A stretch of DNA of 64,000 bases, taken from positions 1 through 64,000 of the forward strand of contig JAULBX010010103.1 of NCBI GenBank assembly GCA_032358255.1. Reading direction: 5' to 3'. Within the stretch, counting starts at the first letter, position 1, and every line of letters starts with the position of its first letter. Shown in pieces: positions 1 through 63,967 of this stretch. The translations under genes were made by a program, and so were the position numbers. This DNA is from Heterotrichella gracilis. Lineage: Eukaryota > Sar > Xanthophyceae > Tribonematales > Xanthonemataceae. Under the pieces are notes generated by a model, which did no database searches, was not told the origin of the DNA, and saw only the letters and a program-made list of their open reading frames with translations.

Positions 1-3000
1 GGGGTTTTCGGAGCGGGACGTCTTGATGCGCATGTGCAGGTGCTGCCTGAACTCGTGGATGCGCAGGACTTGGCTGCAGTGGGGGAGAGAGGGAGGGTTG
101 TGAGGATGAGGGGTTGTGTGGATAAGGAAGAAAATTGTCTGGATGCGCAGGACTTGGTAGGGGGGGACAGGGGTGTAAGCAAGGGGGTAGTGTGGGGGTG
201 GAGACAGGGAGGAGGAGGAGGGGAGGGGAGGTGTGTAGGCACCGATTCGCCACGACCACAACCATGAGAACACCACACTACCTCCTGGCGCAGTCACCCA
301 GCTGAGGGAATTGCGCGGGAAAGCCAGTGGCTACCACCACCACCAGCACCAGCACCACCCACCTCCTGGCACAGTCACCCAGCTGGGAGTACAGCTCCGG
401 ATAGTCCATGGCCACGCGCCTGAACTTCTCCCCGTTCAGCACAAACAGCTGGGCGTTGGTGAGCGCCCGGGCGGTGAATGGTGATGGGAAGGACTTGATG
501 CGCCACCCAATGTCAGCCGCACCCAGCCCGGCAACCTGAAGCATAGCATACAGGTTGATTTGAATTGTAGAGTTACGTTTTACTGAACTTAGTTCATGGA
601 GATGGGAATCTGCCTGCTGACATGGCTGTCCAGCTGGAACGCATGTGAGTGAGTTGCGAGATGGGAACGACATGATGCGCCACCCAATGTCAGCGGCACC
701 AAGCCCGGTTGAGGCAGAAAAAAATTCTTTTAATTTTTTTGTAAATGATCTGTAACCAATAATTTTATTGCATTATGTGCTGGTGTGCAGGACGTGATGT
801 CATTTAATGCCATCAGCACCCGGCCTAGTGCGTAGGTGATATGAATCCTGGGACCCCCACCCTTCCCCCCATCACACTCCCCAACCCCACCACCCACTCC
901 TCCACCACCCACCTCCAGGACTTGGTCGCTCGGCAGCGGCATGAGCGCAGCCTCGCTGAAGAACTGACCCTCGCTAAGGGTTTCCACCACCTCCCCATCC
1001 AGCTCCAGGTCAATGTAACCTGATCGGATGAAGTAGGTGTTGATCTGCACTGCCCCCGCCTTCACTATGATGTCGCCTGTGCGGTGGTGGGGGAGACAGT
1101 GTTTGGCTACAGTGTGTCACTATATGGGATGTGGGGTCAAGTGCTTGTCCAGATTGGGCAAGCAGCCAAGCTGGGCTAGCAGCAAATGCAGCAGCGCCAC
1201 ACATATATGGTACCCACCACCCAGCCCACCACCCACCACGCACCACCGCCGGCATCAGCAGCAGCGCGGTCCGCTCGACCAAGCCGTCTGGGACTATATT
1301 CTTGCCAAAATGGGAGCGATCCCCATCCGCACTCCCATCCCATCCCCACACTTGAACATCGCGCCCACCCACCACCACCACCACGTGCAAAGCCCAGCCC
1401 CCGCCACCCACCTGCCAGCGTCACTGCCGGCACCAGCAGCAGCGCAGTCCTTTCCACCAGGCTATCCGGAATCAGATTTTTGTCCAGATTGGTGCGGTCA
1501 AGCTGGGCCAGGAGCGACTGGAGCAGTTCGCGGGTCGACACTAGGGCCACCTTGGCCCGCAGGTGGTAGGGCAGCTCTGACAGAACCTGAAGACAAAAAT
1601 TACGAGTTGATATATAATGATAATGAACGATAGAAAAGAAAATAGGCTATATCCATCTCTCTAAAATAAAAAGCATATACAGGAATATATTCATAATATA
1701 TATGCCCAAGTTTTCCTGCAGCAGTGCTTGCGTTGACACTACAGCACCATCTTGGCACACATGGGAGCTCCCATAATCGAACTGCACACCAAAAATGAAA
1801 ACAGCAATTAAAATACCCCCACTTTTTGGGTTGGGCCACATCCTGTGACCCAACCACCTAAGGCCATGTTTGTCATTACCTCCTCATCTCGTAACACTCT
1901 CCCCTCCTTGTACTTGTACTTGAGGTAGCCAAGCACCCGGTCCCGCAGGTCGTTGGGGAGGTCACGAGAGTTGAGCACCTCCTGTGGGGGTTGGGGTTGG
2001 GGGTTGAGGGAGGTGGGCTTATATGGTGATATGAGCGTTGGCGGTTATGGGTGATATGTGCGATATGGTGGGGTGGGGTGGAGGTGGATATGTTGGCGGG
2101 GAAGGTGGGAGGGTGGTGCGGGTGAGGGAGGCAGCAGCCCTCCCTGTATCCTTCTTGTACTCGAGGTAACCCAGCACCCAGTCACGCGGGCTGTGGGGAG
2201 GGTGTTGCAAGAACAAGACCCTAAAACGTCATGAAAGGAACCCTAAGAGAGAATTTCAGAACCACGCACCAGCACCATGTCCATCTGCTTCTTGGACCGT
2301 TGGCGTGGAGGACGAGGACAGAATGGTGGACACCACCACACCCTTCATCAATGCAAATATGAGTGCCAGGCCGACCATTACAAAGTCTTGACCCCATACT
2401 CATTCATTCAAACAAAAGTTGGTGCCAGGGTGACCGTTTTAAACACCCACAGCAGCGCCGTGGGCAAGAAAAGACCCCGTAAAGTAACCTAAAAAACTCT
2501 ACGGGAGGGTTTAGAGCCACGCACCAGCACCATGTCCATCTGCTTCTTGTACCGCTGGCGGCCAGAGGATGAGGAAAGAATGGTTGACACCACCACACCA
2601 TTCATCAGGGCAAAAATTGACGCTAGGGTCACCATGGCGAATACCCACACCAGAGCCTCGGGCCAGGTGCGGGGAGGGAAGGCGCCGTAGCCCAGCCCGA
2701 TCATGCCTGGAATGATATTGGATCATGTGTTCACTTGTGGGAGGGATGATGTTACATATATGTTTGGTGATCGTGCCTGGGATGATGTTGGTGATCATGC
2801 GCGATATGGGGATGGAGAATGCACGAAATGCCAACATTATTATAATAATCATGCCACTCGATAGAAGATGTCTAATTGTCATACCACCTGATGCCCTAAG
2901 TATGCCTGAACTGCTGTTGGATCATCCCTGAGTTGCCTGAGATGATGGTGACTCCCATGGGTGTAACGAATATTAGATACTTCCACCTTTGCATCTTGAC

Positions 3001-63300: not shown

Positions 63301-63967
63301 GAATTTTGAACCCTAAACCCCACATAACAAAACCCTAAATCCAAAGCCTAATCCACAAATTCATATTTTGCAGGCTCTGCGCATAGCTGTAAACGACGAG
63401 CTAGGGGCCCTGGATAGGGTGCTGCCCATGGCAATCGAAATGCTGCGGCCGGGGGGGCGGCTGGGGGTCATCGCATTCCACAGCCTGGAGGACCGAATTG
63501 TGAAAAGGGCCTTTTTGGCGGCGGCTGGCAGGCCCGTGGGCGAGGAGGGGGCGCATGCGCGGCAGATGGCACTGGTCTCGGAGCGGCCTGCGGTGGCCCG
63601 CCTGGTGACCAAGCGACCTATCATTGCAGGTGGGTTGAGGGTTTGTGAGTCAGATTGAGTACTTTGGTACTTATAAGCAATGAGTAATGGGATGGTGGGA
63701 TGGTAAAGGAGGCCAATCTGGTGTTGGTGGGCGAGGAATAGGTGCATGCGCGGTGGATGGCCCTGGTTTCGGAGCGGCCGCCGGTGGCAAGACCAAGCGG
63801 CCTATTGTGGCAGGTGGGTTGAGGGTGGAGAGCCAGATTTGGTAGTTACATCATTCGGTGGTAGGATTGTGGGATGGTACAGCGAGCCGATGTGGCGCTG
63901 GTGGGCCAGATGTGGGGTGCATGCTTGGCAGGTGGCGATAGTTTGGGAGCGTTCCGTAGTGGCTTGA
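60329..63967 (+). CDS. rsmH: RsmH (MraW) rRNA m4C methyltransferase, organelle-targeted; 3' end beyond window
   Basis: SAM-dependent enzyme that methylates N4 of the cytosine equivalent to 16S C1402; here probably for mitochondrial or plastid ribosomes. Exons 60329-60544, 60715-60777, 61232-61350, 61589-61676, 62092-62267, 62621-62768 and 63374-63629 join in phase; the next exon is unresolved. The first 35 residues (starting [18 protein letters not shown]) are basic and lack acidic residues, like a targeting peptide. Motifs follow family order: [26 protein letters not shown] (SAM-binding), [80 protein letters not shown] and [16 protein letters not shown]. The match is full length except for the last segment. 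The start at 60329 is chosen for the targeting peptide. Many introns hold exon echoes. Confidence 0.9.
61432..61515 (+). pseudogene. Echo of RsmH exon 61589-61676 start
   Basis: Copies about 50 bases coding [12 protein letters not shown] from a damaged acceptor region. Homology ends at GGGCTG and continues into TTTAGCG and then CCCTAAACCCC. Confidence 0.8.
61905..61975 (+). pseudogene. Echo of RsmH exon 62092-62267 start
   Basis: A CGCAG acceptor and about 60 bases copy [11 protein letters not shown] to LDMRM with changes. The copy stops after the bases for M-R-M and runs directly into AAACCCTACTCCC. Confidence 0.85.
62330..62560 (+). pseudogene. Echo of RsmH exon 62092-62267 second half plus telomere-like tract
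   Basis: 62345-62495 copies the stretch from [13 protein letters not shown] to the REYGEEKFW region with indels. It is followed at 62498-62563 by nine or so consecutive ACACCCT/AACCCT units, the longest telomere-like tract in this gene. Confidence 0.8.
62880..62998 (+). pseudogene. Echo of RsmH exon 62621-62768 end
   Basis: Repeats the exon from LADIVAG through [10 protein letters not shown] and the CAG-GTGGGT donor, with deletions that break the frame. Confidence 0.8.
63177..63310 (+). pseudogene. Young echo of RsmH exon 63374-63629
   Basis: About 120 bases differ from the true exon by only about five substitutions. They code the same [15 protein letters not shown] segment and what follows through [13 protein letters not shown]. 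The acceptor is damaged and the copy ends after GACCGAATT, passing straight into TTGAACCCTAAACCCC. It lies 70 bases upstream of the true exon. Confidence 0.9.
63690..63967 (+). pseudogene. Two decayed echoes of RsmH exon 63374-63629 end
   Basis: 63725-63830 and 63895-63967 each resemble the exon end coding the [18 protein letters not shown] segment; the first also keeps the GCAGGTGGGTTGAGGG donor context. Spacing is about 160-170 bases. Confidence 0.7.

Follow-up and report, generated by a model that had tools for sequence, protein, structure and literature searches.

Truncated exon copies in the introns of Heterotrichella gracilis, probably left by small head-to-tail duplications

That introns can originate by tandem genomic duplication is accepted (PMC3443670). 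Under the Rogers model of intron gain (Rogers 1989, Hellsten 2011 and Gao & Lynch 2009, as cited in PMC4974935), an exonic segment containing AGGT is duplicated and a new intron forms between the copies, and the potato RdRp gene carries a duplication across an intron-exon border as well as an 83-bp duplication inside an intron (PMC4974935). In mammalian cells, fill-in of complementary 3′ overhangs by CST/Pol alpha-primase followed by end joining gives small tandem duplications, as demonstrated for mouse and human cells with Cas9 nickases that left overhangs some 45 bases long (PMC8355091, PMC5730883; Schiml 2016, as cited there). Natural insertions of 10-1000 bp in rice, tandem or partly tandem, have been ascribed to paired nicks and end joining (Vaughn & Bennetzen 2014, via PMC7407515). 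Here we analyse a 64-kb window from Heterotrichella gracilis, the first 64 kb of the 107,885-base contig JAULBX010010103.1 (C103) in an assembly of 68.5 Mb and 903 contigs, in which true exons are accompanied by truncated local copies of themselves, hereafter called echoes. These echoes are probably small head-to-tail duplications that arise by splice-blind mutation and are filtered by selection, a reading that draws on the direct orientation and short range of the copies, on their one-border layout and near-neutrality, and on their bimodal offsets, recurrence and independent occurrence in a paralogue.

Self-comparison of the window by BLASTN (word 7, E <= 1e-3) returned 80 direct pairs, of which 76 lie less than 600 bases apart, none at 600-10,000 bases and 4 further away, together with 6 inverted pairs. 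Forty Markov shuffles of the window gave zero pairs within 600 bases, as did 5 earlier shuffles. The original prediction had placed echoes beside true exons in at least eight of the nine genes and had proposed a self-alignment of the window among its checks; local direct repeats well above the shuffles (76 versus 0) bear it out. With arrays merged, a non-redundant set (E <= 1e-2, at least 40 aligned columns, identity of at least 75%, offset 60-450) holds 44 pairs in the window and 96 across all 294 kb compared, which comprise 94 kb of C103 and 200 kb from twenty 10-kb loci elsewhere, a non-random sample drawn from contigs with kinase matches. Copies of the 44 window pairs occupy 13.3% of the window, and the identities of pairs run from 77 to 96%, with a median of 84%. 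Eight of the nine window genes carry at least one pair. The exception, correctly foreseen, is a CCDC77-like gene (5300-8500, forward strand; named by reading, with no Pfam match), which is echo-free, holds few telomere-type motifs and sits inside the widest gap between pair starts, 3862-11326. The copy at 63177-63310, for which about 96% identity had been claimed, measured 95% over 128 bases. The youngest array, at 44361-44890 on the forward strand, represents the birth state: about 3.6 contiguous copies of a 148-base unit made up of the 3′ part of an exon, its 5′ splice site and intron, with 96% identity at offset 148 over 382 bases and exon and intron halves alike.

The placement of echoes relative to splice borders was read base by base in an SnRK-like protein kinase gene (55306-58316, forward strand), which has a Pkinase match at 57216-57464 and six hand-read exons at 55306-55602 (start approximate), 56105-56204, 56691-56871, 57227-57457, 57662-57775 and 58094-58316. 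Exons 1 and 2 have donor-type echoes, each of which follows its complete exon downstream, with the donor retained and the 5′ part missing; the first occupies 55674-55759 (offset 158, 91% identity) and the second, which includes intron, 56302-56461 (offset 186, with about 95% identity in the exon part and less on the intron side). Exons 3 and 6 have echoes of their starts that are of acceptor type, lying upstream of the complete exon, keeping the acceptor and lacking the 3′ part (56576-56635, offset 77; 57903-57977, offset 206). A head-to-tail duplication that crosses a single border has to leave this layout. For 24 hand-placed pairs among the 44, we compared how far the open reading frame continues past the block in the copy predicted to be complete and in the echo: 21 pairs were consistent with the layout, 1 was a tie and 2 were against it, the tie being a comparison of two echoes (38479-38802) with one another. 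Tested on these 24 of the 44 pairs, the claim that only one splice border survives agrees with the layout in 21.

Such a layout could arise from splice-blind events alone. Two breakpoints separated by about 80-210 bases, most often by close to 190, would bound a segment that is copied in tandem. A duplication inside an exon would damage the protein and the allele would be lost; one within an intron, or straddling exactly one splice border, would leave the gene functional. On the donor side the first donor would be used and the second copy would turn into intron, and on the acceptor side the second acceptor would be used and the first copy would turn into intron, after which the stranded copy would decay. 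In a model of splice-blind 187-base duplications in one gene, the kinase, using its exons and introns minus the four duplications, 1414 cases fell across one border, 382 within an intron and 192 inside exons, so that one-border cases make up 79% of the tolerated ones. The proposal of a process acting on splice sites is therefore not borne out, because splice-blind duplication with selection yields the same layout, both in the 24-pair test and in the 79% of the model. Apparent activity at splice borders is expected from selection and from visibility, the exon part being what stays recognisable. A splice-site-seeking process is needless; random duplication filtered by selection suffices.

The nonsynonymous/synonymous ratio between copies is 0.72, against a transition-matched null of 0.81-1.20 (28 window pairs), and stop codons are present in several copies. 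The ratio fits one constrained exon paired with one free echo, and by this sequence measure the echoes look nearly neutral; on the same ratio, the idea that they are coding exons under selection was rejected. That selection maintains them as alternative or mutually exclusive exons would agree with exon halves being better conserved than intron halves and with the splice-like sequences kept in some echoes. We nevertheless consider it highly improbable, given the missing splice border, the ratio, the stops and the different echoes carried by a paralogous kinase gene. Mutually exclusive exons that arise by tandem exon duplication are likewise local copies within one gene; they retain both splice borders and undergo splicing, whereas the 24 placed pairs here are truncated.

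That paralogue lies in a 1.6-kb region of contig C135 (locus L042, C135:92301-93900), and a genome-wide DNA search with the kinase exon 2 echo (56302-56461) found only the echo itself, its parent and one exon on this contig. The paralogue has echoes of its own: exon 2 has three, two of acceptor type and one of donor type, and exon 3 has two, of acceptor type at offset 196 and of donor type at offset 180. In the window kinase, by contrast, the exon 2 echo is donor-type at a different offset and the exon 3 echo is acceptor-type at offset 77. Because the two sets differ, independent events are the best explanation. The paralogues also differ in intron position near the echoes (56105-56871 in the window): the intron after the HPNII motif is present in the window kinase and missing from L042, where another sits a few codons further, which suggests intron gain, loss or sliding.

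Copies that are located in introns and carry splice sequence might be put down to mobile introners or to the insertion of retro-copies. Yet no block has more than 1.7% in common with another sampled block, the searched echo matched nothing beyond itself, its parent and the paralogue exon, and the layout is tandem, leaving this origin with practically no probability. Introners place similar copies in unrelated genes, a dispersal that is not seen here.

Unit lengths fall into two groups. Among the 96 pairs, 40 have offsets of 170-210 and 8 of 130-170 (binomial p 3e-6), and a further cluster lies at 80-130. With both end values of 170-210 counted in, 41 pairs have a mean offset of 190 and a standard deviation of 11. 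The window alone has 19 pairs at 170-210, 5 at 130-170, 12 below 130 and 8 at 210 or more. Periods had been expected to cluster at 100-200, and preferred sizes do exist, but as two groups of about 80-130 and about 170-210 and not as one. By analogy with the mammalian products, the lesion would be a break with long complementary overhangs, formed by two nicks on opposite strands, which is filled in and end-joined; nicks in neighbouring nucleosome linkers could act as the ruler that sets the 190-base mode. A profile search gave Ku-domain matches on two contigs.

The same product and size scale would come from replication, if mis-processed Okazaki fragments or flaps, or slippage across one fragment length, created the copies. 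Okazaki fragments are nucleosome-sized. In yeast, 3′ flaps that escape degradation are reported to give duplications, and the flap-derived duplications described there contain internal sequence between the units (PMC13202174). The youngest array here is contiguous, and we regard a replication origin as rather doubtful.

Echoes are unevenly distributed. C103 carries 64 pairs in 94 kb and the other loci 32 in 200 kb, with 9 of the twenty sampled 10-kb loci lacking any pair; the claim of echoes in nearly every gene stands for C103. Intron content probably explains much of the difference. Pairs occur at three of four split actin-family loci; the intronless actin has none, and none were found at any of the eight loci around long single-exon kinases. 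We doubt that the window belongs to a uniquely hot contig, since three of four split actin-family loci also have pairs. The control is not fully blank, one of three bacterial loci having one local pair (L033). Two organisms in one assembly were considered as the cause of the echo-poor loci and set aside, tetranucleotide profiles varying within one contig; three AT-rich contigs look bacterial.

CCCTAAA-type words are the strongest enriched words of the echo-rich loci. Over 58 blocks of 5 kb, pair count correlates with telomere-type motif count (rho 0.58; 0.46 in the other loci only), with no correlation inside C103 (rho -0.01, 18 blocks) and a weak one within the window at the 1-kb scale (rho 0.30). 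A telomere-type motif lies near the junction in 8 of 26 cases versus 14% expected (p 0.025), a comparison whose null includes exons and which is therefore uncounted as support. The motifs may be a cause, a product or a bystander of the echoes. Unequal crossing-over between telomere-like repeats in neighbouring introns, duplicating the exons between them, would account for the word enrichment and for the correlation over the 58 blocks. Border-anchored pairs, however, have one breakpoint inside the exon, and neither the junction count nor the flat relation inside C103 favours it; we judge it very unlikely. The duplication reading can also be extended to a nucleosome-ruled tandem duplicator, in which nicks in linkers about 190 apart would be filled in by CST/Pol alpha-primase, aided by CCCTAAA-like motifs, and rejoined, many introns being built largely from decayed exon-end copies. 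We hold this extension to be unlikely; were it true, a single mutational signature would drive the growth of introns and perhaps also their gain and sliding.

Four-unit exact CCCTAAA runs number 211 genome-wide, versus 0 for the reversed pattern. The telomere unit opens two contigs (C70:4-73 and C140:1-77), and among the first 100 places of the four-unit runs 15 are at these contig starts and the others elsewhere, as many short interstitial tracts. An actin-family locus (L039, 813-1052) holds a young 89-base array, at 97%, that includes telomere-type motifs.

The intron half aligns at z > 2 in 11 of the 24 border-anchored pairs, which indicates that the duplicated units include intron and are contiguous. 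Two of the 24 pairs contradict the layout in the reading-frame comparison, those of kinase exon 1 and of one echo in the SGNH-like gene (47953-48066); in the former, the sequence upstream of the echo is a stop-free low-complexity stretch, and direct reading puts the complete copy first. Several observations weigh against head-to-tail duplication followed by neutral decay. For the unanchored rest of the unit, the median z over 48 pairs is 0.9 and only 12 exceed 2, and simulated pairs reach values this low at a divergence of about 50% or above, versus 15% in the exon halves (median identity 85%); equal neutral decay does not predict so much greater a divergence on the intron side. The 190 mode weakens outside C103, with 8 of 32 pairs at 170-210 versus 2 at 130-170, and the short-offset group is dominant there. 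Young copies are also rare: substitution divergence of the 96 pairs per 5% bin runs 5, 17, 26, 39 and then 9 at 20-25%, despite near-flat detection to 20% (a 95-base half was detected in 30/30 cases up to 15%, 28/30 at 20% and 24/30 at 25%).

The faster decay of intron halves may in part reflect rapid turnover of introns, gene conversion of echoes by their exons, and the choice of pairs on exon identity. Gene conversion after tandem duplication, as an addition to the duplication reading, would keep exon halves alike and would explain why those at 85-97% stand next to unalignable intron halves. It should, however, have homogenised the intron halves first too; the contrast is inflated by choosing pairs on high exon identity, and in the amine-oxidase pair 29747/29900 the exon and intron halves are equally diverged. 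We entertain it tentatively, as possible.

Copies born at a constant rate should be spread evenly over the divergence bins, and the young ones are scarce by that standard: either the process has slowed, leaving an older wave, or the assembly collapsed near-identical copies. The original prediction of a continuous process is borne out only in part, given this rise of the counts from bin to bin. The scarcity of young copies, as if near-identical ones had been collapsed, and the bacterial contigs present could be taken to mean that the echoes themselves are an assembly artefact. This is extremely unlikely, as the copies differ by 3-25% with indels and their flanks are unlike.

Set beside the described systems, the echoes belong to a mutation class that, the claim of no named phenomenon of this density aside, has been named in print as small or internal tandem duplication and as tandem genomic duplication (PMC3443670, PMC8355091); the distinction from whole-gene duplication and exon shuffling, as pervasive short local tandem copying, is upheld. 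In the potato RdRp gene a new intron was shown by RNA sequencing (PMC4974935), whereas here the copies mostly lengthen existing introns, with dozens per contig and a mode near 190. The duplicates of Rogers-type gain are exonic, whereas those of the 24 placed pairs run across an exon-intron border that was already present. The echoes resemble fill-in duplications, which are head-to-tail copies of the segment between opposite-strand nicks, none dispersed (PMC8355091), in being direct (76 pairs, with 6 inverted), local and contiguous, as seen in the young array and in the recognisable intron halves (11 of 24 anchored, 12 of 48 unanchored). The portion of the rice account available (PMC7407515) contains no mention of an exon-border layout, a 190 mode or a hotspot contig. 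The open-access literature yielded no such density, length mode or CCCTAAA association, which is weak evidence of absence with subscription papers mostly outside its scope. Single events are published; the density, the length mode and the co-occurrence with interstitial CCCTAAA motifs look new.

If the pattern is genome-wide, the length spectrum and decay of natural tandem duplication could be read from one genome, with the exon part marking the origin of each copy, and intron growth would have a simple account. Nucleosome spacing as the size setter, and the part played by telomere-type motifs or machinery, would become testable. The contrast between the kinase paralogues suggests a route to intron-position shifts.

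The nine window genes, a list that is partly our own reading, are a channel-like gene (reverse strand), the CCDC77-like gene, a vacuolar-sorting-receptor-like gene, an unnamed gene, an amine oxidase (reverse strand), a FAD monooxygenase-like gene, the SGNH-like gene, the kinase and RsmH. Profile matches support five of them (Pkinase, Methyltransf_5, Amino_oxidase, FAD_binding_3 and the EGF_CA of the receptor, whose PA domain fell below the Pfam cut-off); exons tried from the four others gave no Pfam match, so that the channel-like and SGNH-like genes bear names by reading.

On the reverse strand, donor-type echoes lie at 2207-2360 (offset 257; complete copy 2464-2617), at 3862-3962 in the channel-like gene (offset 176, 90%; complete copy 4038-4180), at 28094-28343, where two echoes of one exon begin at 28275 and 28094 (offsets 193-195; complete copy from 28468), and at 29747-29868 in the amine-oxidase gene (offset 153; Amino_oxidase match 29946-30446). 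An acceptor-type echo on that strand occupies 33592-33641, with its complete copy from 33389.

All other echoes are on the forward strand. In the vacuolar-sorting-receptor-like gene, a four-copy array with copies about 194 apart spans 13470-14208, and an echo of an EGF exon end at 14431-14560 is of donor type (offset 205), the EGF_CA match falling in the complete copy. Acceptor-type echoes occur at 11326-11435 (complete copy from 11522), 15618-15777 (complete copy from 15788), 20446-20628 (complete copy from 20631; intron side still alignable), 25775-25828 (offset 122) and 37570-37663 (offset 158; complete copy from 37728), as well as at 36628-36710 in the FAD monooxygenase-like gene (offset 183; FAD_binding_3 match). 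A donor-type echo lies at 24331-24421 (complete copy from 24148), and the two at 38479-38802 noted above are donor-type echoes of the exon end 38286-38363. The SGNH-like gene has donor-type echoes at 47087-47179 (offset 199) and 47953-48066 (offset 178, the contradicting pair) and an acceptor-type echo at 50805-50893 (offset 217). In the RsmH-like gene, an acceptor-type exon echo at 63126-63310 precedes a complete copy at 63311-63504 and on, with the exon part at 95% and Methyltransf_5 matches both in the echo (63180-63308) and in the complete copy (63335-63631). A second acceptor-type exon echo lies at 61874-61965 (complete copy from 62060; Methyltransf_5 match 62086-62280), and a donor-type echo of an exon end at 63727-63790 (complete copy from 63536).

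The genome has a eukaryotic character, with split genes, an intronless actin and the contigs C70 and C140 opening with CCCTAAA telomere runs. The bacterial contigs within the assembly (C1, C191 and C331; loci L032-L034) have intact RsmH frames, 35-37% GC and high CpG. The window also contains an ATTGG pentanucleotide array of about 22 copies (25161-25276) and, where the SGNH-like gene region begins, a proline-rich long open frame of 380 codons from stop to stop (45110-46252).

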